Positions 9,406 to 60,286 of a stretch of DNA of 64,000 nucleotides are shown here, one piece after another. The number at the start of each line of letters is the position of its first letter. Within the stretch, counting starts at the first letter, position 1. The notes beneath the pieces were generated by a model. It had not been told where the DNA came from. It searched no databases and saw only the letters and a program-made list of their open reading frames with translations. The stretch comes from Bacteroidales bacterium. GTDB lineage: Bacteria > Bacteroidota > Bacteroidia > Bacteroidales > WCHB1-69. The stretch spans positions 62,001-126,000 of the forward strand of contig JAFYNM010000003.1 in assembly GCA_017549765.1 (NCBI GenBank), written 5' to 3'. The translations under genes were made by a program, and so were the position numbers.

Positions 9406-10878
9406 TTGAAACCATTAAAAGACATATTAAAAGCGCTAAAGAAGTACCAGCTTACCGGAGAGCCGGAGCGCATGATCACAGCCATCTGCTTTGACTCACG
9501 CAAGATCTCCCGCCATGCGGGAGGGGAAGGCACCGACCTATATGTGGCCCAGCGCGGCACCCAGACCGACGGGCACCGTTTTATCGGCCAGGTGATCGAC
9601 AACGGCTGTTCCGTCATCGTATGCGAAGAGCTCCCTGAAGAGATCGACGAGCGGGTCACCTACATCCAGGTTCCCGACAGCATGGCGGCACTGGGGCATC
9701 TCGCCTCCGCCTTCTATGACTACCCCAGCAAGCAGCTGCGACTGGTGGGCATCACCGGCACCAACGGCAAGACCACGACCGTCACCCTGCTGCACCGTCT
9801 CTTCAACGAGATGGGGCACAAGGCCGGGTTGCTCTCCACCATCGTCAACAAGATAGGGGCTGAAGAGGTGCCCGCCACCCACACGACCCCCGACGCAGTG
9901 GAACTCAACAGTCTGCTCGCCCGCATGGTGGAGGCCGGCTGCGAATACGCCTTCATGGAGGTCAGCTCCCACGCCATCTGCCAACACCGCATCGACGGAC
10001 TGCAGTTCGCCGGCGGCATCTTCAGCAACATCACCCACGACCATCTCGACTTCCACAAGACCTTCGCCAACTACATCGCGGCCAAGAAGGCCTTCTTCGA
10101 CCATCTGCCCTCGTCCGCCTTCGCCCTGACCAACATCGACGACAAGAACGGACTGGTAATGACCCAGAACAGCAAAGCAAAAGTGAGCACCTACAGCCTG
10201 CGCTCCTTGGCCACCTTCAAAGGGCAGATTCTGGACAACAACTTCGAGGGGTTGCAGATGCGCATCAACGGCTTTGAGGTCTTCTTCAAGCTGGTGGGCA
10301 AGTTCAACGCCTACAACCTGCTGGCCATCTACGGGGCGGCCGTCCTGCTGGGCATGCCGCAAGAGGAGGTGTTGCGCCACATGAGCATGCTGGACAGTGC
10401 CTCCGGGCGTTTCCAGATCGTCCGGCGTGGCGACGGCTGCGTGGCGGTGGTGGACTACGCCCACACTCCCGATGCCCTGCAGAATGTGTTGGAGACCATC
10501 GTCGATGTGACCGACCACAAAAAAGAGGTCATCACCATCGTCGGCTGTGGCGGCGACCGCGACCGCACCAAACGTCCGGAGATGGCCGAGATCGCCTGCA
10601 AATACAGCGACAAGGTCATCCTGACCTCCGACAACCCCCGCACGGAAGACCCCGCCGCCATCCTCGAAGAGATGATAGCCGGCGTGCCCGACAACAAAAG
10701 GAAGATGGTCTCCGTCATCGAGAACCGTCACGAGGCCATCAAGACTGGCAACATGCTGCTCAACAACGGAGGCGTCCTGCTCATTGCAGGCAAAGGACAT
10801 GAAACCTATCAGGAGATCAACCATGTCAAACACCATTTTGACGACATGGAAGAGATCACAAACTGTTTTAACCAATAA
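9406..10878 (+). CDS. murE: UDP-MurNAc-L-Ala-D-Glu:meso-diaminopimelate ligase MurE
   Basis: A 490-residue Mur ligase that adds the third stem amino acid to the peptidoglycan precursor in the cytoplasm. The ATP loop GITGTNGKTTT lies near residues 115-125, the central-domain motif EVSSHAICQHRIDG near 183-196, and the C-terminal substrate motif DNPRTEDP near 407-414. The DNPR form marks meso-diaminopimelate rather than lysine as substrate. The start is a TTG at 9406; the next in-frame ATG (9472) would cut conserved sequence of the first domain. It follows ftsI after 33 bases and precedes mraY by 9. Confidence 0.96.
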   Translation: MKPLKDILKALKKYQLTGEPERMITAICFDSRKISRHAGGEGTDLYVAQRGTQTDGHRFIGQVIDNGCSVIVCEELPEEIDERVTYIQVPDSMAALGHLASAFYDYPSKQLRLVGITGTNGKTTTVTLLHRLFNEMGHKAGLLSTIVNKIGAEEVPATHTTPDAVELNSLLARMVEAGCEYAFMEVSSHAICQHRIDGLQFAGGIFSNITHDHLDFHKTFANYIAAKKAFFDHLPSSAFALTNIDDKNGLVMTQNSKAKVSTYSLRSLATFKGQILDNNFEGLQMRINGFEVFFKLVGKFNAYNLLAIYGAAVLLGMPQEEVLRHMSMLDSASGRFQIVRRGDGCVAVVDYAHTPDALQNVLETIVDVTDHKKEVITIVGCGGDRDRTKRPEMAEIACKYSDKVILTSDNPRTEDPAAILEEMIAGVPDNKRKMVSVIENRHEAIKTGNMLLNNGGVLLIAGKGHETYQEINHVKHHFDDMEEITNCFNQ

Positions 10879-10887
10879 TGTAAGATT

Positions 10888-12144
10888 ATGCTGTACTATT
10901 TATTCACTTGGCTACATAAGATCGGCTTACCGGGATCGGGAATGTTCCAGTACATCTCCTTCCGGTCTGCCTTGGCTTTTGTCATTGCCCTGATCATCTC
11001 GATTTGGATAGGCAAATACTTCATCAATTTTCTGAGAAGGAAACAGATCGGCGAATCGGTGCGGGAGCTAGGCTTGGAGGGCCAGAGCCAGAAAGCCGGC
11101 ACCCCGACGATGGGCGGCATCATCATCATTGCCGCCATCCTCATCCCCGTGCTCTTGCTCTGCAAACTGCATAACATCTACGTGCTGCTCATGATCTTCA
11201 CCACGGTATGGCTGGGCATCCTGGGCTTCGCCGACGACTATATCAAGGTCTTCAAGAAGAACAAGGAGGGTCTCTCCCCGCGCACCAAGCTGATGGGACA
11301 GATCCTGCTGGGCATCCTCGTGGGCGCAGTGGTCTATTTCCATCCCGACGCGAAGATCTGCGAGAAATCGAATGCCAAGAACGCCAGCACCCCCGTGGAG
11401 TCGGCCATCCAGATCTCCAACTCCGACGTGGTGAACACCCACAACGTCTTCGACGCCCCGCACCACTCTACCAAGACGACAATCCCCTTCGTCAAGAACA
11501 ATGAGTTCGACTACGCATGGTTCACCCGTTGGCTGGGCGACACCACCGGCAAGTGGTCTTTCATCATCTATATCCTCATCGTGGTCTTCATCATCGCCGC
11601 CGTCTCCAACGGTGCCAACCTGACGGACGGTCTCGACGGGTTGGCGACGGGCACTACCTCCGTCATCGCTGTGGGCATCGCCCTGCTCGCCTACGTGTCA
11701 GGCAACGTCATCTTCGCCAACTACCTGAACATTATGTATCTGCCCAATATCGGAGAGCTGGTGATCTTCATCTCCGCCGTCATCGGGGCCTGTATCGGCT
11801 TCTACTGGTGGAACTGCTTCCCAGCCCAGGTCTTCATGGGCGACACCGGCAGCCTTACCCTGGGAGGCATCGTGGCCGTATCCTGCATCATCATCCGCAA
11901 GGAATTCCTCATCCCCATACTGTGCGGCATATACCTCGCAGAGGCTGTCTCCGTGCTGATGCAGACCTCCTATTTCAAATACACCAAGAAACGCTATGGC
12001 GAAGGCCGACGCATATTCCTCATGTCGCCGCTGCACCATCACTACCAGAAGAAAGGGGTGCCGGAGCCCAAGATCGTACAACACTTCATCGTCATCGGAC
12101 TCCTGCTGGCGGTCCTGACCTTGGTAACCTTAAAAGTAAGATAA
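10888..12144 (+). CDS. mraY: Phospho-MurNAc-pentapeptide transferase MraY
   Basis: A 418-residue polytopic membrane enzyme that transfers phospho-MurNAc-pentapeptide to undecaprenyl phosphate, making lipid I. Typical motifs are the GTPTMGG stretch near residues 70-76, FADDYIKVFKKN, NLTDGLDGLATG near 246-257, FMGDTGSLTLGG and the catalytic-side MSPLHHHYQKKG near 381-392. A roughly 60-residue hydrophilic insertion between about residues 155 and 215 (rich in N, S, T) is of the kind common in Bacteroidota MraY. Ten or so membrane segments are visible. Confidence 0.96.
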   Translation: MLYYLFTWLHKIGLPGSGMFQYISFRSALAFVIALIISIWIGKYFINFLRRKQIGESVRELGLEGQSQKAGTPTMGGIIIIAAILIPVLLLCKLHNIYVLLMIFTTVWLGILGFADDYIKVFKKNKEGLSPRTKLMGQILLGILVGAVVYFHPDAKICEKSNAKNASTPVESAIQISNSDVVNTHNVFDAPHHSTKTTIPFVKNNEFDYAWFTRWLGDTTGKWSFIIYILIVVFIIAAVSNGANLTDGLDGLATGTTSVIAVGIALLAYVSGNVIFANYLNIMYLPNIGELVIFISAVIGACIGFYWWNCFPAQVFMGDTGSLTLGGIVAVSCIIIRKEFLIPILCGIYLAEAVSVLMQTSYFKYTKKRYGEGRRIFLMSPLHHHYQKKGVPEPKIVQHFIVIGLLLAVLTLVTLKVR

Positions 12145-12170: not shown

Positions 12171-12716
12171 ATGGCAAACAATAAAACCAACAATTTCAAA
12201 ATCTTCGAACTGGAACAGGAGTTCAACAACCCGATGGTCGCCTCCGTCAACGAGCGTCTCATCGAGATCCGCAAGAGAAACATCGCCCAGCAGCTCGCCG
12301 CCTTCCAAGGCTGCGGTCACAAGCTGGAGCAGGTCAAGACCTTGAGCGGCATCGAGTTCATCGACGATGCCAGTTCCACGAACCCCGATGCGACCTGGTT
12401 CTCCTTGCAGCGGATGAACAAACCGACGGTGTGGATCACCAACATCAGCAATGTCAGCAACATGAGCGACGACCTCCTCAAGGCTGTGTATGAGAAGGTG
12501 AAGTTCATCATCATCCAAGGGGTGTACAACTCCGACGTCTATGACCTCATGGCCGACCTGGAGATTCCCTACTCTGTGGAGATGAACATGGAAGATGCCG
12601 TCAGACAGGCCTTCTATGCTTCTGAGAAAGGCTACACAGTCCTCTATTCTCCCTGTGCCGAAGGAACTGCCGAGGAGCGTGGCCGGAATTTCCAAAATGC
12701 GGTAGCACAATTATAG
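12171..12716 (+). CDS. Free-standing degenerate MurD C-terminal domain protein
   Basis: This 181-residue protein sits exactly where murD belongs, between mraY and ftsW, but matches only the last third of MurD. Residues about 15-45 resemble the end of the central domain (SVNERLIEIRKRNIAQQL) and 45-181 the C-terminal Rossmann-like domain (FQGCGHKLEQV, then IEFIDDASSTNPDATWFSLQ). The N-terminal UDP-binding and the ATP-binding domains are missing, so it cannot be a MurD ligase alone. Key C-terminal residues are also changed: the invariant N-D-S-K-A-T-N reads D-D-A-S-S-T-N (residues 65-71, Lys to Ser68), the GGxDKG loop is lost (WITNISNVSN), and the LSPACASxDxF segment is shortened to LYSPCAEGTAEERG. 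The frame is clean, has an ATG 26 bases after mraY and reads like its neighbours. It may be a retained non-catalytic partner or a relic; a full murD must exist elsewhere if the pathway is normal. Confidence 0.8.
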   Translation: MANNKTNNFKIFELEQEFNNPMVASVNERLIEIRKRNIAQQLAAFQGCGHKLEQVKTLSGIEFIDDASSTNPDATWFSLQRMNKPTVWITNISNVSNMSDDLLKAVYEKVKFIIIQGVYNSDVYDLMADLEIPYSVEMNMEDAVRQAFYASEKGYTVLYSPCAEGTAEERGRNFQNAVAQL

Positions 12717-12720
12717 ACTT

Positions 12721-13842
12721 ATGATGCGCAAACTAAACCTGAAATGGCAGTTTAAAGGGGACAAGATCATGCTCATGATCGTGATCTTCCTCTCTTTTCT
12801 ATCCATCTTGATGGTCTTCAGCACCAGCAACATGCGCGTGTTGAACCATCTGACACACCTGGCGTTCTGCTTCGGTATGATGATTGCATGCTACGTGATC
12901 GACTACCGCAAGATCGCCATCTTAACGCCATTGATGCTTCTCTTTGCGCTGGCACTACTGATCATGACCATCGTCTCGCAGGCGGTCCGCGGCGTCACCA
13001 TCTTCGGGCATGACGTGCAGACCTTCTACCTGATCGGGTTCATGGTGCTGTTCTACATCACCAACTATATCGCCCACAAGTACAATGCCGGACAGACGCT
13101 CACCACCCAGAACATAATGTATCTCTTCGGGGTGGTAGGGATCTTCACCCTGGGCATGGCCAAACTCAACATGTCCACCGCCATCATCTTCTTCATCACC
13201 TGCACAGTGATCTTCTTCATTGCGCATGTAGAGATGAAATGGGTGATGATGCTCTTCGGTGTCGGTGTCTTTGCCGCCGTGTTGCTGGCCAGCATCGTGC
13301 TGATAGGGATGAAGTCCGACAAAGGCATTGAGATCGGTCGTATGACCACCTTCGTGAACCGTATCACCTATTACATCACCAAAGACAATGTCAATGGCTA
13401 CGGTGACCAGATGGTGCTGTCGCGTGCCGCCATAGCGCGCGGTGGTTTCCACCCCACGGGACCGGGCAAAGGGGTCATCAAATACCGTCTGCCTGAAAAC
13501 TCCACCGACTATGCCTTTGCCTCTTTGTATGAGGAGGTCGGCATCACCGTCGGCATCCTCATCATCATGTCATACCTGATCTTCTTCTATCGGGCCAGGG
13601 AGATCTCCAAGGAGTCGGGAGGGCCCTTCGGGAAGCTCTTCGCCTTCGCCATCGGCTTCTGGCTTACCTGCCAGGCGCTGGTCCATATCGGCGTCAACTG
13701 CGACCTGCTGCCGGCCACCGGCCAAACGTTGCCCTTCATCAGCAGCGGTGGCGCCTCCCTCGCCGTCTCGGGCATAGCCGTCGGCATCCTACTCAACATC
13801 AGCAAGGTGAACAATATCCGAAAAGAGAACGAAGGACGCTAA
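12721..13842 (+). CDS. ftsW: SEDS peptidoglycan glycosyltransferase FtsW
   Basis: A 373-residue SEDS-family membrane protein that polymerises glycan strands at the septum together with FtsI. About ten hydrophobic segments are visible. The family signature regions are AIARGGFHPTGPGKGVIKYRLPEN (only part quoted: TGPGKGVIKYRLPEN, near residues 247-261), TDYAFASLYEEVG after it, and the C-terminal FISSGGASLAVSGIAVG. It starts 4 bases after the MurD-like gene. It is the last dcw gene here: murG, murC, ftsQ, ftsA and ftsZ do not follow, and the next gene is convergent after 22 bases. Confidence 0.94.
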   Translation: MMRKLNLKWQFKGDKIMLMIVIFLSFLSILMVFSTSNMRVLNHLTHLAFCFGMMIACYVIDYRKIAILTPLMLLFALALLIMTIVSQAVRGVTIFGHDVQTFYLIGFMVLFYITNYIAHKYNAGQTLTTQNIMYLFGVVGIFTLGMAKLNMSTAIIFFITCTVIFFIAHVEMKWVMMLFGVGVFAAVLLASIVLIGMKSDKGIEIGRMTTFVNRITYYITKDNVNGYGDQMVLSRAAIARGGFHPTGPGKGVIKYRLPENSTDYAFASLYEEVGITVGILIIMSYLIFFYRAREISKESGGPFGKLFAFAIGFWLTCQALVHIGVNCDLLPATGQTLPFISSGGASLAVSGIAVGILLNISKVNNIRKENEGR

Positions 13843-13864: not shown

Positions 13865-15259
13865 CTAATGCACCAACACTACCGTGCCGCGCTTCTCCTG
13901 CCTCGTCTCTCCCAAGAAAGAATAACGGATGATGTAGGGATAGACCCCGTCGGGACAACCTCCGCCATCCCACCCCACGTCTTTCCTGCGCGTGGCAAAG
14001 ATCATGCTACCTATCCTGTCGTAAATCTCCAGTCTGTAAGCATCCACCCGCTCCGGATAGGCAAAGACGGGCATGAAGACATCGTTGAGGCCGTCTCCGT
14101 TGGGCGTGAAGGCACTCGGCACCCAGATGGAATTCTCCACCCCTTGCCAGTCGTACGAGATGTGCAGAATGACCACGGAGTCGCAGCCGTTGAAACCTGT
14201 ATAGTTGAAAGTATAACTGCCCGCTTCCGTGAAGGTGGAGTCCTCAAAGAAGACAGTCTCCCCGGGAGAGATGGTGTAGGAAAAATAACTCGTCTTCCGC
14301 GTTTTCACCGTCAAGGTCAGCTGATGCAAAATGGATCTGTTGCCGACACACTCCCATTGCTCGAAGACAAAGGTGCCGGGGTTCAGGATCGTTGGAAGGG
14401 AAAAACCATATCCCTCATACGACGAACCCGCACAGATGGTGTCTTTGTGAGCCACCATGCTGTCAGGCGACATGTAGTCGCCATATATCGTAAGACTGTC
14501 CAACTGGAACATCACATCCACGCTGTCGGGCATACATGCTTTGAAAACGAGACGACTATTGGGTGGCACCGTGATCCCTTTGCAGATAAAGTTGGAACGG
14601 CAATCATCATAATGCAAATAGTTCATACTGTAAACCGTAATGGTATCGATAGGCACAAAATTATGAGCAGGATCATAATTGGTTACCATATAAGACAATG
14701 GATCCCAGCTGGTGCTTATGTAATCTATCCCATCATGATGAGGATTGGGCACAACTTGAAGAGGTTCATCTTGCACGGTATAGCCTACCACCATTTGAGC
14801 ACCCTCGGAAGTAGAGTCCCCATTCGGCCCTGTCATACCAAAGTAGTAGCATGCCTTAAACGAAATCCCCGACGGCGAACTTGCCAGAACGGGGGTGGAT
14901 GAAATGGCAATTTTAGAATAAATGGCGGAACATTTGTGACGTTGGCCAAAACGCAGGAAAACGTTACGAATCGGGCCAGGGAAATAATATTCCCAACTAC
15001 ACATACTATTCCATCCGCAATCATGCTTCCTGTATTGCAACCAGCAATTATCAACAAGCACATAGCTGGTGTCAAGGCTTGTTATATTTGTCCAACCATT
15101 ATTCAAGACAAAACCATTCTCAAAGTCCTCATAATAGGGCAATGATAGGGGCGAACAGCCCGGCTGGGCACACAGCTGCATCTTCGAGAAGATCAGTATG
15201 CCCACTATGATCGACAACCGCCACAGGGACTGCTTCATTCTATAGCGTTGAATATTCAA
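13865..15259 (-). CDS. Secreted protein with T9SS type B (CHU_C) sorting domain
   Basis: A 464-residue secreted protein. A signal peptide ends near ILIFSKMQLCAQ; an inner ATG at 15238 (MKQSLW) is an equally good start. Residues about 30-230 look like a jelly-roll module of the choice-of-anchor type found in surface proteins (PYYEDFENGF, NGWTNITSLDTSYVLVDN), with several cysteines. The last 85 residues form the gliding-motility-associated C-terminal domain: VPSAFTPNGDGLNDVFMP, then LEIYDRIGSMIF and a final VVLVH. That domain is the type B signal for T9SS export, usually with surface release or SprF-dependent handling. No enzyme motif was recognised. It is convergent with ftsW. Confidence 0.85.
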   Translation of the reverse strand: MNIQRYRMKQSLWRLSIIVGILIFSKMQLCAQPGCSPLSLPYYEDFENGFVLNNGWTNITSLDTSYVLVDNCWLQYRKHDCGWNSMCSWEYYFPGPIRNVFLRFGQRHKCSAIYSKIAISSTPVLASSPSGISFKACYYFGMTGPNGDSTSEGAQMVVGYTVQDEPLQVVPNPHHDGIDYISTSWDPLSYMVTNYDPAHNFVPIDTITVYSMNYLHYDDCRSNFICKGITVPPNSRLVFKACMPDSVDVMFQLDSLTIYGDYMSPDSMVAHKDTICAGSSYEGYGFSLPTILNPGTFVFEQWECVGNRSILHQLTLTVKTRKTSYFSYTISPGETVFFEDSTFTEAGSYTFNYTGFNGCDSVVILHISYDWQGVENSIWVPSAFTPNGDGLNDVFMPVFAYPERVDAYRLEIYDRIGSMIFATRRKDVGWDGGGCPDGVYPYIIRYSFLGETRQEKRGTVVLVH

Positions 15260-15310
15260 ACTAAAATAACACTATAATAACGAACAATGGGGCGAAATGT
15301 CACACTCGCC

Positions 15311-15351
15311 CAGAAAAAAAAGAGGACAACACCTTTCGGCATCGCCCTCTT
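15311..15351 (-). terminator. Rho-independent terminator of the rpoBC operon
   Basis: On the minus strand a 14-base stem with wobble pairs (arms 15351-15338 and 15333-15320) closes on a GAAA tetraloop and is followed by a run of eight T. It lies 29 bases after the DUF3467 stop and closes the secE-to-DUF3467 operon. Confidence 0.85.
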
Positions 15352-15379
15352 GCAAAATATAGCAATTTGAACGTATTCA

Positions 15380-15676
15380 CTATGCTAAGCCTTGTCCGCC
15401 AGTCAGCGGGGGAAAGCCTTGCGGTGCGCCTTCGTCGATCACACCCATCTTGCTCTCGTAAGCACTGAGGTTCTCGGTCAAGGCACGCAACAGACGCTTG
15501 GTGTTCTTAGGGGTCATAATGACGCGGGAACGTACCTGTCCTTTGTTGACACCCGGCATCATCTGCACAAAGTCCAGAATGAACTCATTGTCGGAATGCG
15601 TGATGATGGTCAGGTTGGAATAATGGCCCTGAGCCACCTCGTCTGTCAAGTTAATATCAATTTTCTGTTCTTCCAT
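15380..15676 (-). CDS. DUF3467 family protein, last gene of the rpo operon
   Basis: A 98-residue protein of the DUF3467 family, function unknown. It is a compact alpha/beta sequence (INLTDEVAQGHYSNLTIITHSDNEF, then FILDFVQMMPG and VRSRVIMTPKNTKRLLRAL) with a disordered Gly/Pro C-terminus and no signal or membrane segment, so it is cytosolic. It follows rpoC after 23 bases and precedes the operon terminator, so it is made together with RNA polymerase subunits. Whether it touches polymerase is unknown. Confidence 0.88.
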   Translation of the reverse strand: MEEQKIDINLTDEVAQGHYSNLTIITHSDNEFILDFVQMMPGVNKGQVRSRVIMTPKNTKRLLRALTENLSAYESKMGVIDEGAPQGFPPLTGGQGLA

Positions 15677-15699
15677 AGCGTTAGGATTCTATTGTTCTG

Positions 15700-19992
<4,293 letters not shown>

Positions 19993-20013
19993 AATTTCGA
20001 TTATTTATCTTTC

Positions 20014-23000
20014 TTATTCAAATTTAATATCTAAGCACAGACCACGCAATTCGTGAACGAGCACGTTGAAGGACTCAGGGATACCGGCTATCGGCATATT
20101 GTCACCCTTCACGATAGACTCGTAGGTCTTGGCACGGCCGATGACATCGTCGGACTTCACTGTCAGGATCTCCTGCAGCACGTTGGATGCACCGTAGGCC
20201 TCGATAGCCCAGACCTCCATCTCACCGAAACGCTGACCACCGAATTGGGCTTTACCACCTAACGGCTGTTGCGTAATCAAGGAGTACGGTCCGATAGAAC
20301 GAGCGTGCATCTTGTCGTCCACCATGTGGTGCAGTTTCAGATAGTAGATGTAGCCCACCGTGGCTTTCTGATGGAACGGCTCACCCGTCTCGCCATCATA
20401 GAGCTGCGTGCTACCGTTCTCCGGCAGACCGGCCTGCTTCATATAGTCGTTGATCTGGTCAATAGAGGCACCGTCGAAAATCGGGGTGGCGAACTTGCAA
20501 CCCAGTTGTTTGCCAGCCCAGCCCAAGACAGTCTCGTAGATCTGTCCCAAGTTCATACGGGAAGGCACACCCAGCGGGTTCAGCACCACATCCACAGGAC
20601 GTCCGTCGGCCAAGAACGGCAGGTCTTCCTGCTTCACAATCTTAGCCACACAACCCTTGTTACCGTGACGACCAGCCATCTTGTCACCGATACGCAGTTT
20701 ACGCTTGTCGGCGATATAGACTTTGGCCAGCTCTACAATACCGCTCGGAAGCTCCGTGCCGATGGTGACATCAAAGCACTCGCGGGTCTTCTTCGCGTGG
20801 ATGTCTCGATATTGAATTTGATAGTTACGGATGATCTGGGCCACAATCGTGTTCAACTTCGCATCGTTGGTCCACTTGGACAGGGTCACATTGTTGAGGT
20901 CAACACGCTCGCCGCGCAACAACTTCAACGAGAACTTGGAACCCTTGGGGATGACCACCTCCTTGACGTTGTTGTAGATATTCGTGGAGATCTTGCCCTC
21001 CAGCACCTTGTACAACTTGGCGATAGCCTTCTCACGCAATGCATCGAATTGAACTTGATAGCGGGCTTCGATCTCCGCCACTTGCTCTTTGTCTTTTGCT
21101 TTGGAGTTTCTGTTCTTCAACGGACGTTGGAGAGACTTGGCTCCGATGACGACACCCTTCATGGATGGGGGTGCCTTGAGGGAAGCGTCCTTGACATCGC
21201 CGGCCTTGTCGCCGAAGATGGCACGGAGCAGTTTCTCCTCGGGAGTCGGATAAGACTCGCCCTTAGGCGTGATCTTACCGATCAGGATGTCTCCCTCCGT
21301 CACCTCGGCACCGACACGGATCAAACCGTTCTCGTTGAGGTCCTTGGTGGCTTCATTGGAGACGTTGGGGATATCGTTGGTGAGCACCTCGACACCGCGC
21401 TTGGTGTCGCGAACCTCCAACGTGAAGGACTCGATATGGATGGAGGTGTAGAGATCCTCCGTCACAGCCTTCTCAGAAATCACGACGGCATCCTCGAAGT
21501 TGTAGCCCTTCCAAGGCATGAAGGCGACCATCAGGTTGCGGCCCAGGGCCAGCTCGCCGTTGTCGGTGGCATAACCGTCGGTCAGCACGTCGCCCTTCTT
21601 GACCTTCTGCCCCTTCACCACGATAGGACGCTGGTTGAAGCAGGAGTTCTGGTTGGTTCTTCTGAACTTGAGAAGGTCGTAGCGTTTCACGTTGGACTCG
21701 AAGCTGATGAGCTCTTCGAGTTCGGTGCGCTCATAATCGATCTCGATATGGAGGGCGTCCACAGAGGTCACCACACCATTACCCTCGGCCACGAGCACCA
21801 CGCGGGAGTCAACGGCCACCTGATGTTCCAGACCGGTACCTACGATAGGCGCCTCGGGGCGCAACAACGGCACGGCCTGACGCATCATGTTGGAGCCCAT
21901 CAACGCACGGTTGGCGTCGTCATTCTCCAAGAACGGAATCAAGGAGGCTGCCAAAGAGGCAATCTGGTTGGGGGCGATGTCGATCATGTCAATATCCTCA
22001 CGCGGCAGGATCGGGTAGTCGGCCAAACGACGGGCCTTCACCTTCTCACCCAACAGGCCGTTCTCATCCATCGGGGTGTTGGCCTGGGCGATACGCAGGT
22101 TGTCCTCCTCCTCCGCAGTCAGGAATACGGGCGCCTCGTCAAACTGCACCTGGCCGTTGACCACTCGACGGTACGGAGTGGCGATGAAGCCGAGGTTGTT
22201 GATCTTGGCAAACACACACAATGAAGAGATCAAACCGATGTTCGGTCCTTCAGGGGTCTCGATGGTACAGAGACGACCATAGTGTGTGTAGTGTACGTCA
22301 CGCACCTCGAAACCGGCGCGCTCACGTGACAGACCGCCAGGACCCAAAGCGGAGATACGGCGCTTGTGCGTAATCTCGGACAACGGGTTGGTCTGGTCCA
22401 TGAATTGGCTCAGCTGGTTGGTGCCGAAGAAGGAGTTCACCACGGAGGAGAGCGTCTTGGCATTGATCAAATCCACCGGTGCGAACAACTCGTGGTCACG
22501 CACGTTCATCTTCTCACGGATGGTGCGGGACATACGGTTCAAACCTAAGCTGAACTGGTTATATAATTGTTCTCCGACAGTACGGACACGACGGTTGCTC
22601 AAGTGGTCGATATCGTCCACCTCCGTGCGGGAGTTGATCAACTCGATGAGGTAGCGGATAATGGAGATGATGTCCTCGTTGGTCAACACGCCCGTCGTGA
22701 TCGGAATGTCGAGATTCAGTTTTTTGTTGATACGGTAGCGGCCGACCTCACCCAGGTCATAGCGGTTCTCGGAGAAGAAGAGCTTCTCGAGGGTGGCGCG
22801 GGCTGTCTCCTCATCGGGCGGAATGGTGCTCTTGAGCTGTTGGTAGATATACTCGATGGCACCTTTGCCCGTATGGGTCGGGTCCTTCTGCAACGTATTG
22901 AAGATCACAGAGTAGTCCAGCTGCTTCGGGTCCTCCTTGTGGAAGAGGACAGACTTGATATTGGAACTCGTGATCAAGTTGATGTGCTCTTTCTCCAACA

Positions 23001-23871
23001 CCGTCTCGCGGTCGATGATGACCTCGGAACGTTCAATGTTGGAAATCTCACCGGTCTCCTCGTCGCCGAACTCCTCGTTCCAGGTCTTGGTGACGGCGGC
23101 GGCGAACTTCTCACCGATGTGTTTCTTCAGGTTAGCCTTGGTGGCTTTCACCTCGTAGGCGATGTCGAAAATACTGAGGATGTCCTTGTCGGTCTCATAA
23201 CCGATGGCACGCAGCAACGTTGTGACCGGCAATTTCTTCTTGCGGTCGATGTAGGCGTACATCACGTTGTTGATGTCGGTCGTGAACTCCATCCAGGAAC
23301 CTTTGAACGGGATGATACGGGCTGAATAGAGCATCGTGCCGTTCGTGTGGTAGGAGAAGCCGAAGAAGACGCCCGGGGAGCGGTGCAGCTGGGAAACCAC
23401 GACGCGCTCGGCACCGTTGATGATGAAGGTGCCGCTGGGGGTCATATACGGGATCATGCCCAGATAGACATCTTGGATGCGGGTCTCAAAATCCTCATGC
23501 TCCTGATCCGTGCAGGAAAGTTTCAGTTTTGCCTTGAGGGGGACGCTGTAGGTCAGACCTCTCTCCAGACACTCGTCCATGGAGTAGCGGGGGCCTTCGA
23601 TGGCATAGTCTAAAAACTCGAGGACGAACGTGCCTCTTGCATCCGTGATCGGGAAGTTCTCCGCGAAGGCACGGTAAAGGCCCTCGTTCTGACGGCACTC
23701 CGCATCGGTGTCGATCTGGAAGAACTCCTGAAAAGATTTAAGTTGAATGTCCAGAAAGTCCGGAAATTCAACAGGTCTTGTGGTTGCAAAACTTATTCTT
23801 TGATTAGTATTATTTGCCAAGGCTGTAAGTTTTTCGTGAAAAAATGATGCTGACTGAGATTGGAATGCCAA
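20014..23871 (-). CDS. rpoB: RNA polymerase subunit beta
   Basis: A beta subunit of up to 1285 residues. Recognisable parts are [15 protein letters not shown] near the start, [16 protein letters not shown], the rifampicin-pocket region ([30 protein letters not shown] near 490-520, quoted in part), the GRHGNKG loop, and the C-terminal [24 protein letters not shown]. No ATG opens the frame: the two plausible starts are TTG at 23871 and TTG at 23820 (before [11 protein letters not shown]). Homologues usually begin close to the NQR..FA stretch, which favours 23820. A 16-base hairpin separates it from rplL. Confidence 0.97.
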
Positions 23872-29687: not shown

Positions 29688-32600
29688 TTAACGTCTTACA
29701 ACTAACTTCTTGGAGAGAGTAGCGTTGTCGTTGATGATGTACATGAAGTACACACCAGGAGCGAGGTTCTTAGCAGTGCTACGATAGAGGTACTTGCCGG
29801 TAGCCGGGATGTTAACCTTATCAGTAGAGAGAACAGAACCTGTCAGGTTGACAATTTGGATCGTGGTCTCACCAGTGATACCACTGATCTCAGCATTGAT
29901 CTCCTCAGAAGTCGGGTTAGGATAGATGTTCAAGGTAGCATTATCCTCGTAAGAAGGAGTCATAGGAGCAGGAGCAGGAGGATTAACATCCATGTTGCCG
30001 CTGTCTTCGCCCACAACGGAGATCATGATAGAGTCAACATTGAGGAGGGTCTGAGTAGCGGAAGCCACGAGGGAGTTCCAACCACCGATGATACGGGACT
30101 GGTTCTGATACTCATTAGCATCAATGCTCTCGCTGTAGTAAGGATAGTTATGCGTGTTGGTATTGCTGGTAGCATACAGCTTGTAGATGATCTTATAGTC
30201 ACCGGCAATTCTGAACGGACGGATGGTCTGAGTATAGACGTTGTCAGCCAAGAAGTGCAAGTAGAAGTCATCGAAGGTAGCACTACCGTAAACCTTGGTG
30301 TACGGGAAGTGGTTATCATACTGGTTGGTGGTACCAGCCTGAGCCTTATTGTAACGAGTCAACGGAGTGGAAGTGGTGTGGGAAATAGCACTACCATACT
30401 CGTAGGAGAACTCGATAGAGGTGTTCCAGAACTCATTGTATGAATTCGGGATAGCAGCGTTGGTCAGGTAATCACCAATTCTGTTGTTATCAATCAAAGT
30501 ATCGTTGTGATAGATATCGAAGGTAACATATACCAGGGTATCTTCTTCGAAGCAAGGATTGTAAACTTCCCAAGTGTAAACGAGGTTGTTGTTCAGAGAA
30601 GCAGGATCGTTCACGTCAACCGTGTTGATACCGTCGATGTAGTGAGTCTCAACGCCTTCATACTTGAAGATGAATCTCGGAGAGTTGGTCACTTGAACCG
30701 TCACAGCGTTGGCATCGATCGGTTGATAGCCACCATTGACATTCGTCGTAGAAACACAACCCTTGCTATCGGTTACGACAACCGTGTAGGTGTAGATTGC
30801 ATCCTCAGCAGCCAGTTCACTGGCATCAACGGTGTAGGTTTGATCAGAAGCATTAGAGATAGATTCACCGTCCATGTACCATTGATAAGAGTCGAACTCT
30901 TGGGTCACAGACAAGGTGGTAGTACCGTCATGACAGATGATTGTGTCTTGCAGCACAACAGGAACAGGAAGAGTATCCACGGTGAGCGTCCAGGTGAACG
31001 GGAAGGTACCGCAGGTGGTCTCAATGGTGTACGTAATGGTAGCACCATTGTAGTTAGCATAGTCGTAATTTGCGGTCCAATCAATCTCTTCACCGTTGAC
31101 AGTCCAGGTCTCGGATACAACCGTAGCACCGCCGTAGTCAACAAGCATATCATAATTGATAGTAGGTTGAGGAATAGGATTGTTATCACACATCTCGAAG
31201 TAGTCATCCTCGAGATAAACATCAGGATCATTGTAAGCCTCGACAATAACTTCGTTGGAAGTGTAGATGTCGCACTGAGTCTCCACATAGTAGTAAACGA
31301 TAGCAATATCACCGGCAGCGAGGGTGGAGTCAGCAGTGAACTCAACTTCACCGTTTCCACGATCTACCATCCAGCCTTCGCTCAGAACCTCAGTAGCGCC
31401 ATAGAGCGTGTACTCAGGAGCCGGCACATAGGTAGCGATAGAGAGATCGCGACAAGAGTCAACACCCGTGATTTCGAGCTCAACAGGAGCGGAAACATTG
31501 ATATCGATAATTTGATCAACAGTACCACAATCGTTGGTAACAGAAATCTTGACTCTCAAGTTGGTATCTGCAAGCGTGATGTTGTACGGGAAGACAATCG
31601 CAGTTTCTTCGTCGCCATGGAGAGCATAGAAGTCAGGACCATCATTAGAACCAGAACCATAAGAAGTGATAGAGTAAGAAACTGTCAAATCTTCACCAAC
31701 ACAATAGAGATCTTCATCAGCCTCAAAGAAGTGGATGACAGGAACAGAGTATATGGTGATAGTCAAAGTCTCTTCAACGTTATCGCAAACATCGGCATCG
31801 GTAGTCAAGGTTACCTCATACTCGCCAGGTTCGATGGAAGTATTCGGAGTAATCACGATAGCGCCATCACCCAAGGTGACCCAGTCATACTCGCTGGAGA
31901 GCACAACATTGTAGTTGGATTCAAACTCAACTTCAGTAGGCTGTGCATTGTTACAGATGGTGATCTCAGTATCATCGAGTTCGATGTACGGAGTCGGGTC
32001 AACTACAACAGTCACTACATTGGAGATGACACCGTCAGGAGCACAGTCATTCTGAGCAATTACTCTGAAGTAGTAAGTGCCAGCAACTTCACCGGTCCAG
32101 GAAGTACCGTCAAGCGTTACTTCAGACCAAGTAGTTTGATCGGCGCTGATCTCGAAGGTGAGAGAACCTTGAGCGTTAGCCCAGTTGGTCGTAGCGGTAA
32201 AGGTCACAACCTCATCCTCGCAAATCTGATCATAATCAACGGCCAAGGTAACCTCAGGAACGTCGATGACGGCGATTTGGATAGCCTCGGAAACGGCAGA
32301 ACCGCATTCGTTCTCAGCATAGAGACGTACATAGACACCGTTCATCTCAACATCGGCCAGGTCATTGACATCGTCAACATCTACCCAGTTGTTGCCATCC
32401 AGCATTTGCAAGGTAGAATCAACCATAGTACCGTTGTTCCAGTTGATAGCCGGGATATTCAGGGCGAAGTTCTCCACGCAAGTACCAGTCTGGGAAATCT
32501 CAGGCATGGTAGGAACGTCCTTCACGAGGAGGGTAGCGTGGTTGGTCTCAGAAGAACCGCACTTGTTAGAGAGGATCATATAGACCTCATACTCACCAGC

Positions 32601-35600
32601 GGTCAACTCTACATCATCGTCAAATTGATAACCAAGTTCATTGGCAGGAACGATCATGATTTGAGCGGTTACAGGAGCAGTAGCGGTAGCAGGAGTCGTC
32701 AAAGCGAAGTTCAGGTCAGTACCCGTAATACCATCGGCAGCGCAGATCACGCCGTCCTCGATCGTACCGGTCGGGATGGTATCGACGGTGATTTGGATAG
32801 CGTTGGAAGCAGTATCACCACAATCGTTGGTTACTTGGTAAGCTACATACATGCCGTTCATAGCATAGGTGACAGTGCCGTCGAACTCGGTCCAAGGACC
32901 TTCAGCAGAAGCACCATATACCCAAGCAGTGGTACAAGCATCGTGGTTGCACACGTAATCAGGAGTAGCGAACTTATCCGTGATGTTGTCACCATGGCAG
33001 AATTCGGCAACACACTCGGTAGTAGTTTGAGCATCGATAGGACGATAAGTCACAGTTAAACTACGTACGCGGAATTGAGAGGCATCACCAGAAGCATTAG
33101 AATGATTACGGTAAGTAACATAAACTGCACCGAACGGATCAGCTTGGAAATCAGGAGAAGTAGTGAAGTAAGAAGCGACACCTTGTGTGTTGTTATAGAT
33201 GATTTCCAATTCAGGAGTGTTATCAGCTTCAATATCTATATCTGTTATAACATAACCATTTGCAGCATCAACAAGAAGTTCATTACCTTGTTGATTGGTA
33301 CCTTTATAGAAACGAGCAGAACCATTCCAGAATGCAGGAGAATTCTGAGAAGAACCTTGGTTAACAATTAAAGTAATAACATTGTCAACAATAGTAGAAC
33401 TAGCAATGTATGTAGGATTATTTTGAGTGCCAGTGGTATAATTATCTGCATACGTGTAAGTAACAGTAATAGGAGATTGGCAATCAAGCGTCAGCTCTTC
33501 AATGTCAGCCTTGTCGTTGATGGTCAAAGTGATAGGATCACTCCAGGCCTCACCGCAAGAATTTTCAGCATAACCCCAAACAATACGACCATCCCATGCG
33601 CGGGTGAAGACAACAGTGTCAGGATCGAAAGGAATATCTACACCTTCTTCCCAAGAAGTATAATAGGTAAATCCAGAATCAGTACCTTCATTGTTGTTCC
33701 AATTGATAATCAGATTGAGGTTCTCAAACGTATCACCAACACAATATTCGGTCACAACATCCTCGTCAATCTCAACGTCTGGACTAGCCATGAGAACGAT
33801 ATGGTGAATCATCACACTGTCGCAACCATAGATAGATTGGAGAGAATCGATGACGTCGAAATGCGTGCTTGCAGAATCGAAAGGATGAGGTCTAGGATAC
33901 CAGAGCACCGTACCGTCGCCAAGTTCAAGGGTGTAATCACCATTGTTATTTAAGTAAGAAACACAGAGAGAATCCTGAACTTCGATCTCGTAGGTCGGCA
34001 TGGAGAAGACACCGATGGAGTCAACGTTCTGACAACCGTACTCGTCGGTAACCGTCACCTTGTAGAAGCAGTAGTTGCCGTTCGGGAGGGTTACGTCGAA
34101 GTTGGACTCGGTCACTTGGTTAGACCACTGGAAGGCAACCAGGCCAGCAGGATCAACACCGAGGTTGATCGGGAAGTCGTTGTGGCAGATATTCACCTCA
34201 GGCTCATAGTAAGGCTCTTGATCAACCAAGAAGGTGATGGTCGGGTTCGGCTCAACCTCAACATTGATAGAGTCGATGCTCGTACAACCCGTGAGCTCGC
34301 TCACTACGGTGATGTAGTACGTACAGATGCCCGTGTGGCCAGTGTAGATGTCGAGGATCGGACCGTCAACCGTACCGGTACATACAGAATACCAAGAGTA
34401 GTGGAATACGGTGTCGCCAGGAAGCGTGCTGGTTGCAGAAGCAATCAGTTGGCCCTCAGCGTTCAGACAGTAAACCGTGTTGCCCTCGATCTCGATGATC
34501 GGTTTGAACTCGGTGCTGTCTTCCACGATAATGTTGGTAGCCTCATAGCTACAGCCAAGGTCGAGGTCTTTCACGTAGATGGTGTAAGTACCAGCGGCCA
34601 GCTGTTGGAACATATTGTTGCTGCCGTAGTTCACACCGTCGATGGAGTAAACAAAGTCAGCATCAGGATTCTCGCTGGAAGCGTGAAGGATGATGATACC
34701 CGTGTAAGGTCCTTCGCAGTTCACGTTGTCGATAACTTCAGGATCGAAGGTGATGTGAACGGTGTCGTAAGGAACGTAAGCGGTATCCTCCAAGGAACAG
34801 CCAGTGAGAGGATCATATACGTGGATGGTGTAGAGGTCGTGAGTCAACCAGTACATCACGTAAGAATCAGGAGTGAAGTAACCAACGGTATCCAAAACGT
34901 TCGGCTCATTGCTGTTCTCGAAGTAATAGATGTAGTTGGTGTCCATAGGAGCCGTCACCACGATAGTACCGTTACCCGGTTTCTCGAAGGTAGGAGCACA
35001 CATGGTGTTAGGAGTGGAATAATGTACAAGTTGCGGCAAGAAGGCGCTGTCCACAACATGATGCTCAATCACGTCGGAGCAGTTCATGGCGCTGATAGCC
35101 TCGATGATATAGTCACCGGAGTTAACACCTTCGAAGATGCCAGTGGTGTTGGAAGCAACCAACTCTAACTCTTCATCGTACAAGTTATAGGTGATAGGAA
35201 GAACAGCGTTGCCGGTATTGGTAACCGTGATCACACCGTCTTTCTCTTCTTTACAATTGTGGTTAGCCGTAGAGGTAGCTGTGATGTTAGGATATGCAGG
35301 AGCGAAATCAATGTGAATAACGGTGTCATACATACAAGTGGTATTGACATTGGTAGCAGCGAGATAGTAATCGCCAGTATTCAAACCAGCGAACACACCC
35401 GTCATATTCTGACCAATGGCTTCCATATCTTCATTAGTAAGTAAGAACATGAAGTTCTCAGTAGCGCTGGTCACCGTGATGGTACCGTTACCCAGTTCAG
35501 GGTCGCAGTTCTGATCCGGAGTCAAATTGACAGCCCAGATATAAGGAGCCTTTTCGAACTTGATAGTCACAACGGTGTCCTTAGAACAACCGGTAGCGTC

Positions 35601-38600
35601 GTTAACCTTCACGATACGATATTGACCGGCCGGCAGGTTGGTGGTAGCGGCCAACAACATCGGAGTGCTGCTAGCAAGTGTATAGGTATAATAGGTATAA
35701 CCAGTCTCAGCAGCGATGGTGATAGCACCGTTCGGCGTAGTGCCTTCGCAGTTCACGTTCGGAGTGAGGGTGATCTCGTTGTTGAATTCAACCTCGAAAG
35801 GAACGGAAGTCACAGGGATGGTGAATACGGAGGTACAACCGAGATCAGAAGTGATGGTCAGGGTGTAGTACGTGGTATCTTGACCCGTAGTGCCGAGTTC
35901 GTTGAAGATGAAGTGGGTGCCGTCATAAACAACCGTCTGATCGTTCATAGCGTAGGTGTAGCCGATGATAGGATTGAGGATAGCCACAGAACCATTGGCG
36001 GTGATAGCCTGGTCGCAAACAGAGTTCGGAGTGATGTTCATGTTCGGGAGAACAGGATCCTCAGTGGTGGAACCAACAGTGATCATGAAGTTCTTGGCAC
36101 AACCGAAATCGGTAACGGCGGTCAGGGTGTAGGTACCGTTGTTCAAACCGGTGAAGGCAGCAGGAGTACCCACGATGGTGGTCTCACCGATAGTGTAAGT
36201 GTAGCCAGCCATAGCGTTGGTGATCGTGATAGTACCATCGGGCTCGTCGCAACGAGTCTTAGGAGTCGTGATCGTGGCAACGATAGGATAAACACGTGCA
36301 CTGTCAACGATGATGTCTTCCTTCACATAGGTACAATATTTGTCAGTAGTCACGTGGATAGAGTAGTGACCGTAGATCAAGTTGTCATAAATGAGGTCGC
36401 CACCTTGATAGAGAACGTCGGAGTTCGGGAGGTTGATGATCTCATAGGTGTAACCCAGTTGCGGGTTGGTGATGGTGATAGTACCATCGTAAGGAGGAAT
36501 ACACCATGCGTTCGGCGTAGTAACGGTAGCCGGGATCACCACGTTGGTGTCACGCTCCACGACCACGCTGGCGATATGGTTGGACTGACAATCGTAAGAG
36601 GTCAAGAGGTCGAACCAATAGGTGCCTTCCTGGAGACCAGTGTAAACGTAGGTCAGATCTTGCCATTGAGTCTCGCCGTTCATTCTCCAAGCGACGATGT
36701 CAGGATGGATAGCAGCGATGGAGATGGTACCGTCATAGATACCGTCCTCATTCTCGCAATAGGTGTTGGCGGTCTGAATCAAGTTGACGTCAGCGGCAAC
36801 AGGAGTATGGTGTACGAGAATGTCGATAGAACCGGCGGCGCTACAACCGATGCTGTCGGTGACAGTCACGGTGTAAACATGAGCAGCCTCGGTAGGATAA
36901 ACGGTGATGTTAGCGTCGTGGTTGTTGTTCACGCTCCAGGTGTAGATAACCGGAACGACAGCGTTCTCCACGGTGGTGGTCAAGTTCACCTCCTCGCCTT
37001 GGCAGATCTCCGGTTCGTCAGCCGTGATGGTGACGGTCAGAGGAGCGCTGGACTTGAGGGTGATGATATGGGTGGTAGCGTTACCACAACGGTCGGTGAT
37101 GGTCACGGTGACAGGAGTCTCCACAGCGATCAAGCTGCCAGCGGCAACATTCTGCGTGATGGTGAGGTTACCGAAACCGTAGCAGTTATCCGTTACATTG
37201 TCATTATTGAAATAAGGTTGCAAGTTAGGAACCGTCATCATACAGTTGGCACCCGGATCGAGGATAACCTCGGAAACAACGTTACCAACAACAGGAGCGA
37301 TGCTATCAACCACGTCGAAGGAGTAGGAGGTGGAAGCTTTACAGCCAGCATCGTTGAAAACGGTCAGGTAAGCAGTATAAGTCTTGTTACAGCTGTCCGG
37401 AAGGATGGTCACGAAGGTGGTGTCCATGTTGACTTCGAGAGGCAGGTTCACACTCTCGCCGCTCCAGATGTGACGTACGATTTCGCCACCGTTACCCGGA
37501 TCCGTGATGGAGTGGATGGTGAGGTTACCGTAGTTAGGACACAACGGGAAGGTAGAGCCGTTGAGGATGATCTCTTCGATAGCAACAGTAGGAAGACCGC
37601 TCACGTGAACAGGAGCAGCGCTGATAGAATCCACACAACCGTAGTAGTCGGTCACATGAATAGTATAGGTATAATCCATATTGCCAGTAGCGGGAACGCC
37701 GTATGCGTCGGCACTGGTGTGATAGATGATGGAACCGTCGTTCGGATTAGCAGTCCACTCAAGTTGATAGTAGCTTTCGCCATTACCGTCGATCAGCGGA
37801 GTAGCATTGTGTACGAAGGAGGTGTCGAAGTGCAAGAAGATGGTGTCGTGGAGACAGATAGCTTCAGGAAGGGCGGAGATACCACCGTCGATGAGCATAC
37901 GAGGAGGACGTACCAAGGAGAAGACCTCGGTCACGACAGAGTTGTTACCGCAGTTGTCGGTTACGACAGCGTAAACGGAAGCATAGTCAGACTCTTCGAA
38001 GATCAGGTGCTCAGGAGCGAGGATCGTACCAGCGGCATCCAAGTAGAATACCACATTGGTGACGGTCGTGCCGGTGCACTCGAAGGAAACGGTATGGTCA
38101 GCATTGAAGGCTGCCAACAAAACTTCGTAGGTAGGAACGCGGAACTGGCAGTTTTGAACCGGAACAGGATTTACGCTGGAGATAGCGCCACCGACAACGG
38201 GTTTGTAGTCGTTCTTGATGGTCCAGTTCTCAACATAAGGATTGGAAACGTTGCCGCACTCATCCTCGAGGATATAAGTTCTGGTCACATAAACCTCACA
38301 ATCAGTAGTGGTCACTACAGCAGAATAATGAACCTTCTCAAGGTTCTCGCAGTGATCGTTGATGTCCAGGAGGTTCTGGAGATCGGCCACGGTACGACGG
38401 CCAGCCACGAAAGCAGCGGCGGTGGTGTCGCAACCGGAAACCGTGATATTGGTGATCGTAGTCGGCTTCGGAGCCACCACGATAGCGTTGGTGTCTTGAG
38501 CAGTCAGGATGAAGGTACGATAGAGAGTGTCCATACATCCAGCATCGCTGGTAGCGATAGCCATGACTACATAGGTATTGGAACCCGTACAAGCATTAGG

Positions 38601-57811: not shown

Positions 57812-57829
57812 AGCCTATAATTCTTGTGT

Positions 57830-60286
57830 ATGAACATCGCCCGGATTTCGACTATCGTCAACGCCATCAAATCAGAGATTCCAAGTCCGGAATCTCTCGT
57901 AAACAGCCTCTGCATGGACAGTCGCAAGGTATCCTCCCCCAACGGTGTTCTCTTCTTCGCCATCAAGACGACCCACAATGACGGCCACCGTTACATCCCC
58001 GAATTGTACCAGAAAGGGGTGCGGAATTTCATCATCACCGCCCCTGTATCCGACTTTTCATCGTTAAAAAATGGGAATTTTATCCAAGTCTTAGACGCAA
58101 TCGAGGCCCTGCAGACCATCGCCCGCGCACACCGTGAAGAATTCCACTATCCCGTCATCGGCATCACAGGCAGCAACGGCAAGACCATCGTCAAGGAGTG
58201 GTTGAACATGATGCTGAACATGGAATACCATATTGTGAAGAGTCCCGACAGCTACAACTCCCAGATTGGGGTCCCCCTGTCGGTGTGGCAGATGCGTCCC
58301 GAACACAACCTCGGCATCTTCGAGGCCGGCATCTCCCGTCCGGGCGAGATGGCCCGCATCGCCGACATCATCCGACCCTCCATCGGCATCCTGACAAACA
58401 TCGGCATGGCCCACGCCCAGTTCTTCCAGTCGATGGAGCAGAAGCTGAACGAGAAGCTCCTGCTGTTCCGCCATGCCGAGAAGCTCATCTTCAACAACGA
58501 CAACCCACTGATACGGGAGACCTTGGACAGCGATGCTTATTCACACATCCAAAAGATCTCCTGGGGATATAATGATGCTGAATACCTGATCACCTCTCAG
58601 GAGCGCCGAGGCAACTCCACACTGGTCGCCATCCGCACCTTCACCTATCACATACCCTTCGTGGATGCCGCTTCCGTGGAGAATGCTGTCCACGTCATCG
58701 TCACCATGCTGACACTCGGCTACCAACCCGAAGTCATCGACGATCGGCTGTCGGCGCTGACGCCCATCCACATGCGCATGGCCATCCAGGAAGGACGCCA
58801 GCACTCCCTGATTCTCGACGACGCCTACAGCTTGGACTGGACCTCCCTCGCCGTGGCCCTCAACTATCTGGACACTCAAACGCAGATGCCCGACAAGGCG
58901 CTCATCATATCAGACTTTGATCAAGCGGGCACCCTGCAACAAGATGACTACGTGCGCCTTAACGACCTCCTGCTCGCCCATCATATCGGCAAACTCATCG
59001 CAGTGGGCATGGATTTCTTTCAGCACCGGCAGGCATTCACCATCCCCAACGCCTACTTCTACCCAGACACGGAATCCCTCATCTCCGACCTCTCCACCTT
59101 CAACTTCGCATACAATGCCATCCTCATCAAAGGAGCGCGAAACTTCCATTTTGAGGATGTCGTCCACCGCCTGCTGCACAAAACGCATCTGACCACCCTC
59201 AATGTCAACCTGCCTGCCCTCGTGCACAACCTCCACTATTTCCGCTCGCTGACAAAGCCGGAGACCAAGATGGTGGCCATGGTCAAGGCCTTGTCCTACG
59301 GCTTGGGCGATGCAGAGATCATCAACGAGCTAATCAACCAGAAAATCGATTATCTGGCGGTGGCCTACACCGACGAGGGCGTGCGCCTGCGCAAACGGCA
59401 CATCAAGACTCCCATCATCGTCCTGGGTGCCGAAGCGCACAGTTTCGAGTCCATGGTGCTGAACCAGCTGGAACCGGAGATCTTCAACTTCTACTATCTT
59501 CAAGAGTTGATGGGCGTCCTCAAAGAGCATCCCGAGATCTCCCGGTTCCCCATCCATATAAAACTGGACACCGGCATGCACCGGCTGGGCTTCGACGAAG
59601 AGGACCTCCCGCGCCTGCTGAACCTCCTGAGCGACAACCCCTGTCTGCGCGTGGCCTCCGTCTTCTCCCATCTCGCCGCTGCCGACGACCCTGAGGAAGA
59701 TGACTTCACCCGCCAGCAAATCCAGCTGTTCACCCGCATGACCGACACTCTAAGGGTAGGCCTTGGATATCCATTCCTCCGGCACATCCTCAACACGGCG
59801 GGCATCGTGCGCTTCCCGGAGGCGCAGTTCGAAATGGTCCGACTGGGCATCGGCCTCTACGGCTTCTTCGACCAGCCCGAAGTGCAAGCCAACCTGCAGA
59901 ACGTGGCCACGCTGAAGACGCTCATCACACAGGTCAAGACCATCCGGGCGGGCGAGACCATCGGTTACAGCCGCAGCTACAAGGTGGAACACGACATGCA
60001 GGTGGCCATCATCCCCATCGGCTATGCCGACGGCTACCCCCGCGAGTTCAGCAACGGAAAAGGACTCGTGATGGTGCGAGGCCAACTGGTGCCCGTGGTG
60101 GGCAAGATCTGCATGGACATGTGCATGCTGGATGTGACAGGGCTCTCCGTGCACGAAGGCGACGAAGTCATCGTCTATGGCGAAGGCAACACCGCCCAAG
60201 ACGCCGCACGCCGCATCGGGCACATCAGCTACGACCTGCTCACCTCCCTCTCCAACCGCGTACCGAGAATATATGTTAAAGAATAA
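57830..60286 (+). CDS. Bifunctional MurF ligase / alanine racemase fusion
   Basis: An 818-residue fusion of two steps of peptidoglycan precursor synthesis. The first half (about 1-445) is a MurF-like ligase that adds D-Ala-D-Ala to the UDP-MurNAc-tripeptide, with the ATP loop [14 protein letters not shown] near residue 108. The second half (about 450-818) is a PLP-dependent alanine racemase making D-alanine: the PLP lysine in [10 protein letters not shown], the [10 protein letters not shown] segment and the C-terminal catalytic tyrosine in [10 protein letters not shown] with [12 protein letters not shown] are present. The same fusion is common in Bacteroidota. I take the ATG at 57830; a TTG two codons upstream is possible. 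It lies apart from the dcw cluster. Confidence 0.95.

Follow-up and report, generated by a model that had tools for sequence, protein, structure and literature searches.

In many bacteria the ligases that build cell wall precursors are encoded among division genes; the reason for this placement, and a possible structural function in addition to the enzymatic one, are long-standing questions. Relatives of enzymes in which the active site has been lost are generally referred to as pseudoenzymes. In both Escherichia coli K-12 and Bacteroides finegoldii, a full-length murD occupies the slot between mraY and ftsW in the dcw cluster. Another kind of MurD, the L-Glu ligase MurD2, accompanies the epimerase MurL in Xanthomonas; in the sections of PMC8788868 used here, Xanthomonas MurD2 becomes a D-Glu ligase through the paired substitutions E197D/R358K, and in E. 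coli MurD the change D182E/K348R did not give acceptance of L-Glu, which K319T did. The sections used here of two reviews (PMC8788868, PMC5808125) list other groups as MurL/MurD2 users and do not name Bacteroidales. In searches of the open PMC literature, neither a MurD C-terminal domain standing alone nor MurL from Bacteroidales turned up, no paper joined murL, Bacteroidales, and peptidoglycan and, among the matches listed, none combined MurD and pseudoenzyme.

The window, that is, the whole stretch of 64,000 nucleotides analyzed here, carries in the murD slot a gene for a stand-alone MurD C-terminal domain, hereafter called the stub, within the following run:

9406..10878, forward strand: murE, which opens the murE-mraY-stub-ftsW run (NF001126, 608 bits, cut-off 373)
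10888..12144, forward strand: mraY, directly 5' of the stub (TIGR00445, 325 bits, cut-off 192)
12171..12716, forward strand: the stub, a stand-alone MurD C-terminal domain of 181 aa with its active-site motifs lost (translation, profile and phmmer matches, alignment, dN/dS)
12721..13842, forward strand: ftsW, directly 3' of the stub (PF01098, E 6e-40; TIGR02614 is the best match but falls below its cut-off)

The stub starts 26 bp after the end of mraY and ends 4 bp before ftsW, and translation of 12171-12716 gives an ATG start and 181 uninterrupted residues, as the first-pass annotation had read it. The NCBIfam profile TIGR01087 (murD) matches stub residues 17-178 at positions 273-439 of 441 (E 3.4e-23), so that the gene encodes the C-terminal domain and the end of the middle domain, as had been proposed; the score of 82 bits is far below the curated cut-off of 212, and the stub is devoid of the ATP-binding P-loop of a three-domain MurD. 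The best PDB chains found by phmmer are those of MurD (E 3.6e-8), and Pfam Mur_ligase_C matches weakly (E 0.081). Against the stub, the dcw MurD of B. finegoldii scores 104 bits at 32% identity and the other MurD encoded in the stub's genome 38 bits at 25% identity, the B. finegoldii protein being the closer of the two. These matches and the flanking mraY and ftsW confirm the initial description of a stand-alone, degraded MurD C-terminal domain in the place of murD.

Other genes in and around the window were also noted. The run ends at ftsW, and a type IX secretion signal (CHU_C) gene, rpoC, and rpoB follow on the opposite strand (13865-23871); a 3566-aa frame at 29688-40388 has a C-terminal type IX sorting domain as its sole Pfam match; and a MurF-alanine racemase fusion lies at 57824-60286 (1023 bits). 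A second, stand-alone MurF (G000:C10:160210-161124, 379 bits) is located outside the window and MurC on another contig of the same genome. The dcw run murE-mraY-murD-ftsW-murG of B. finegoldii is carried by a 49-kb record labelled plasmid 26 (NZ_OY725928.1, L195), which is possibly a mislabelled piece of chromosome.

Three segments of the stub lie where the active-site motifs of MurD would be expected:

12351..12383, forward strand: IEFIDDASSTN, residues 61-71, in the place of the NDSKATN motif, whose Lys is Ser here (alignment)
12441..12467, forward strand: NISNVSNMS, residues 91-99, in the place of the lost GGxDKGNDY loop (alignment)
12651..12683, forward strand: SPCAEGTAEER, region of residues 161-171, the shortened glutamate-site segment (alignment)

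The lysine of DSKATN is replaced by Ser68, the GGxDKG loop has been lost and the LSPACASxDxF segment is shortened, all as called in the first pass; SPACASFDLFxNYEDRG of MurD is reduced to SPCAEGTAEERG. The window protein has Ser, Val, and Gly where E. coli MurD has Lys319, Lys348, and Ser415, respectively, and, since both the ATP-binding domain and the catalytic lysines are missing, ligase activity of the stub is, judging from its sequence, very unlikely.

The stub is an old conserved gene, as its distribution among 100 related genomes (its own included; mostly drafts) makes clear. The window protein finds a sequence match in 99 of them, and frame lengths and translations identify the stand-alone form in 62, namely in 56 of the 60 genomes of the window's family (f1) and in six of the 40 elsewhere in the order (G061, G063, G073, G090, G092, and G097); an accident of one assembly is thereby ruled out. 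Together with an extra copy each in G032 and G006 and, in G064, a fragment at the edge of a contig, the stub loci total 65. In 60 of these mraY lies 5' of the stub, the remaining five being at contig edges, and ftsW lies 3' in 60 as well. In two of the five loci lacking ftsW the contig ends about 0.4 and 0.9 kb further on (G040 and G048, respectively), and the other three (L071, L074, and L063, in G051, G052, and G056) show no ftsW-like frame within about 3 kb past the stub and are still preceded by mraY. The distance from the mraY stop to the stub start, -1 to 246 bp across loci, shows that the front of murD was removed cleanly. Slots that could not be seen were not counted as losses of the stub (G018, G075, and G078, with no mraY match; G008 and G030, 59% and 51% complete). 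Among eight named near relatives, all Bacteroidales assemblies, six are labelled as coming from yak omasum, sheep rumen, or water buffalo rumen or reticulum.

Erosion of the active site is graded across the stubs. Leaving out the G064 fragment and the second G006 copy, whose sequence is the same as that of G049, 63 of the 65 stubs could be compared; Lys is present at position 319 in 12 of them and at 348 in three, and Ser at 415 in 14. The DSKATN, GGxDKGNDY, and SPACAS motifs are still present in the stubs of G063 and G097, which indicates that truncation preceded erosion, at least there; the catalytic motifs persist in part in G045 and G090 and are lost in most stubs of the window's family. 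Residue retention was then read in 62 stubs (the second G032 copy also left out) against 33 full dcw MurDs (type A) and 37 full MurDs of the second type (type B). At the 24 sites where types A and B share one residue at a frequency of at least 90%, mean retention in the stubs is 57%, being 8-34% for the residues of the GGxDKGNDY loop, 21% for the Ser of CAS, and 23% for the Arg of HRLE, and 82-100% for His50, Glu53, Asp66, Ile89, Gly117, Leu158, Pro161, Arg170, and Gly171. At 24 further sites typical of type A and not of type B the mean is 55%; as a class, residues special to dcw MurD are therefore no better kept in the 62 stubs than the shared ones (0.55 versus 0.57), although some of them (Trp76, Lys109, Ala143, and Leu181) are kept in 87-100%.

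The protein is maintained by selection, and its dN/dS ratios are those of working genes, within the range of the adjacent mraY and ftsW. Among six close relatives including the window gene, the median dN/dS of the stub is 0.100 (range 0.028-0.121; seven of 15 pairs usable, with dS below 1.5), and mraY and ftsW of the same loci give 0.066 (10 pairs) and 0.116 (six pairs). A second set, of 11 genomes, has a stub median of 0.037 (range 0.016-0.064; 12 of 55 pairs), against 0.028 for mraY and 0.094 for ftsW. Stub differences at the first, second, and third codon positions are 0.154, 0.069, and 0.446 in the first set and 0.111, 0.061, and 0.486 in the second. Between distant genera, one of five pairs has a usable dS (G043/G059; dN 0.25, dS 1.21, ratio about 0.21). 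The medians and the intact frame rule out a pseudogene. The first-pass annotation had named two signs of one, dN/dS near 1 and sister genomes with a full murD in the slot; the ratios are far from 1, and sister genomes of the genus show no full dcw murD there. Its view of a non-catalytic relative that is selected rather than decaying is supported by these ratios and by retention in 62 genomes.

A search for a full murD elsewhere in the genome yields exactly one, at G000:C5:30063-31391 (346 bits), away from the dcw slot, with the motifs QEH / DSIST / DRG. When the two types are aligned with E. coli MurD and Xanthomonas sacchari MurD2, they differ at positions 182, 319, and 348: type A has Lys319, Lys348, and Asp182 in all 33 sequences, whereas type B has Ile319 and Arg348 in all 37 and Glu182 in 36, the three residues of Xanthomonas MurD2. 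Type B also groups with Xanthomonas MurD2 in a tree (support 0.96) and type A with its own kind (0.94). The second MurD of the window's genome shares these residues and this grouping, and it is predicted from them to be an L-Glu ligase of the MurD2 type. A MurD annotated as such on a Firmicute plasmid (L194; Pusillibacter faecalis pMM59_01) branches beside the MurD2 group and has Ile319, Lys348, and Asn182, so that position 319 alone is no marker.

The same genome has MurL at G000:C13:53699-54865, on a different contig from the second murD. Its match to the MurL model (E 3.4e-75) stays below that model's 700-bit cut-off, which is clade-specific, and 363 columns aligned with Xanthomonas MurL give 34% identity. 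Across type B loci, eight of the 12 inspected adjoin a member of one protein cluster, four tested members of which match the MurL model (E 1e-72 to 1e-77), all below the 700-bit cut-off. Enzymes that make free D-Glu were not found in the window's genome: there is no glutamate racemase (MurI, TIGR00067) at E 0.01, no member of the Asp/Glu racemase family (PF01177) at E up to 1, and no D-amino acid aminotransferase (Dat, TIGR01121) at E 1e-60, the last being absent over its cut-off from all 100 genomes. The suggestion that the real murD had moved elsewhere thus fails: a relocated murD is ruled out, since the other MurD belongs to a separate lineage, of MurD2 type, and occurs with MurL and without MurI.

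This combination extends across the order. MurL (counted at E up to 1e-10, some matches being fragments) occurs in 65 of the 100 genomes, MurI (counted over its cut-off of 147 bits) in 28, and both together in none; G098 has MurL and a MurI-like match of 43 bits, below that cut-off. Neither was found in seven, of which G008, G010, G016, G030, G056, and G057 are 51-79% complete, the seventh being G073. Among the 28 MurI genomes, a full MurD with a high score is present in 27 (type A in the 23 that were read) and a full-size stub in none; the remaining one (G075) has no mraY match. The 65 MurL genomes comprise 57 with the stub, two with no mraY match (G018 and G078), and six with a full type A MurD whose C-terminal motifs are intact (G053, G070, G071, G084, G085, and G098; the front of the G070 protein is cut near a contig end, and the G053 protein has GKHI instead of GKHN), which shows that truncation is no necessary consequence of MurL. 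Of the 65, 62 have a second MurD of full size and B-type score, G009 has a fragment, and G047 and G055 have none. In a phylum sample of 296 genomes, MurL was found in one, the window's own. These counts indicate that many Bacteroidales make wall D-Glu through the MurD2/MurL route, and such a switch of pathway likely explains why the dcw MurD could be dispensed with as an enzyme. As a separate observation, the stub of G073 (L086, G073:C4), a genome in 10 contigs and 98% complete, is strongly eroded; murE is present there and no MurD, MurI, or MurL is detectable, which is either a gap or a further change of the pathway.

The explanation that we prefer, with a probability of about 0.5, is that the stub is the remnant of the ancestral D-Glu murD of Bacteroidales, enzymatically redundant after the switch to MurD2/MurL and retained for a non-enzymatic job of its C-terminal domain, likeliest docking. 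Following this scheme, the chemistry would pass to MurD2 and MurL and the dcw MurD would become dispensable as an enzyme; the N-terminal and ATP-binding domains would be cut away, and the active site of the remaining domain would erode in most lineages while the domain was preserved as a protein. What would preserve it is a second, non-enzymatic job that the MurD C-terminal domain already held, and retention in the operon together with selection at the protein level fits such a role. The best guess for this job is docking in the wall-precursor or division complex encoded by the same cluster. According to the parts of two papers used here, MurD, MurE, and MurF of Thermotoga contact MurG and MreB (PMC6420597), and the Mur synthetases of mycobacteria contact FtsW, FtsQ, and FtsZ, not each other (PMC3605390), which makes docking reasonable. 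However, a surface dedicated to dcw MurD finds no support, given that type A-specific residues are kept no better than shared ones.

One truncation was weighed against several in a tree of 30 selected C-terminal domains (12 of the 63 stubs and 18 full copies); a FastTree tree of all C-domains was not relied on. The free tree needs four changes and mixes stubs with full copies, the G045 stub standing beside the full copy of G053 (support 94/89; G053 has 6% contamination), but constraining the stubs to form one group gives a tree that the AU test does not reject (p 0.126). In a tree of murE, mraY, and ftsW the MurL genomes form one group, into which an outgroup and G066, a MurI genome, are also drawn; these two are taken for misplaced long branches. 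Ten stubs begin with M-x-[ILFY]-E-x-L, including three of the four that keep the catalytic motifs wholly or partly, and a matching Met lies inside 29 of the 33 full-length dcw MurDs, where it may be kept for its own sake. Such stub starts would be expected from an internal start in full MurD. We raise, tentatively and as a doubtful extension, that the MurD of Bacteroidota always had two jobs, as a ligase and in a separate structural role of its C-terminal domain within the division/wall complex, possibly by means of a short product from an internal start, with the structural half alone left under selection once MurD2 and MurL took over the chemistry. If so, nature has carried out a separation-of-function experiment on a Mur ligase.

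A rival that fares less well than the docking remnant, and that we hold to be rather unlikely, would make the stub a dedicated regulatory partner that binds MurD2 or MurL and activates, stabilizes, or places them. In its favor, no stub accompanies an over-cut-off MurI in the 100 genomes and 57 of the 62 stub genomes have MurL; however, the six MurL genomes with a full dcw MurD do without the stub, and the stub adjoins mraY, whereas MurL adjoins the second murD in eight of the 12 loci read. Clearly less probable is a new small-molecule role, such as nucleotide sensing, which would account for the presence of Asp66 in 63 of 63 stubs and of His50 in 92% despite the loss of the lysines, the matching MurD residues being ATP contacts. 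Nevertheless, the fold may be what requires both of them, only 23% have the Arg beside His50, and the residues for phosphate and glutamate are mostly gone. That the stub is merely decaying, as a relic and slowly, or serves as a spacer coupling the translation of ftsW, seems highly improbable: stepwise erosion of the catalytic motifs, which G063 and G097 still have intact and most stubs of the window's family have lost, would suit it, but dN/dS is 0.016-0.121 over the 19 usable pairs and the stub persists in the three genomes with no adjacent ftsW. Finally, the proposal of the second half of a split MurD, with the first two domains encoded elsewhere, can be set aside, given that no orphan N-terminal MurD half was found in the genome (98.65% complete, 36 contigs), where the Mur-ligase-like matches are complete proteins of other kinds (the MurD2 type, MurC, MurE, MurF, MurF-Alr, and a MurC/Mpl-like ligase) or, judged by eye, FolC-like and TrkA-like frames, and that the second MurD carries a C-terminal domain of its own and the stub no catalytic lysines.

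Here evolution has taken away the catalysis and left a single domain standing in its slot across one family of Bacteroidales and in some others, which allows a second role of MurD to be tested in isolation. Moreover, the MurD2/MurL route in Bacteroidales bears on the prediction of wall chemistry and on inhibitors of MurI or MurD.

Compared with the MurD2/MurL system of Xanthomonas (PMC8788868, PMC5808125), the second MurD agrees with Xanthomonas MurD2 at positions 182, 319, and 348, murL lies beside murD2 in Xanthomonas as in eight of the 12 loci read here, and MurI is absent from the MurL genomes; however, the old murD is kept here as a stub, and the window's genome has murL on a separate contig from the second murD. 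With the full-length MurD of E. coli and Bacteroides the stub shares the homology of the C-terminal domain and the dcw slot between mraY and ftsW, but it lacks the N-terminal and ATP-binding domains, has lost the catalytic residues, and scores 82 bits against the cut-off of 212. It resembles pseudoenzymes in that the active site is lost while other conserved residues and purifying selection are kept, and differs from pseudoenzymes in general in being a single Mur-ligase domain that stands in its original operon slot.
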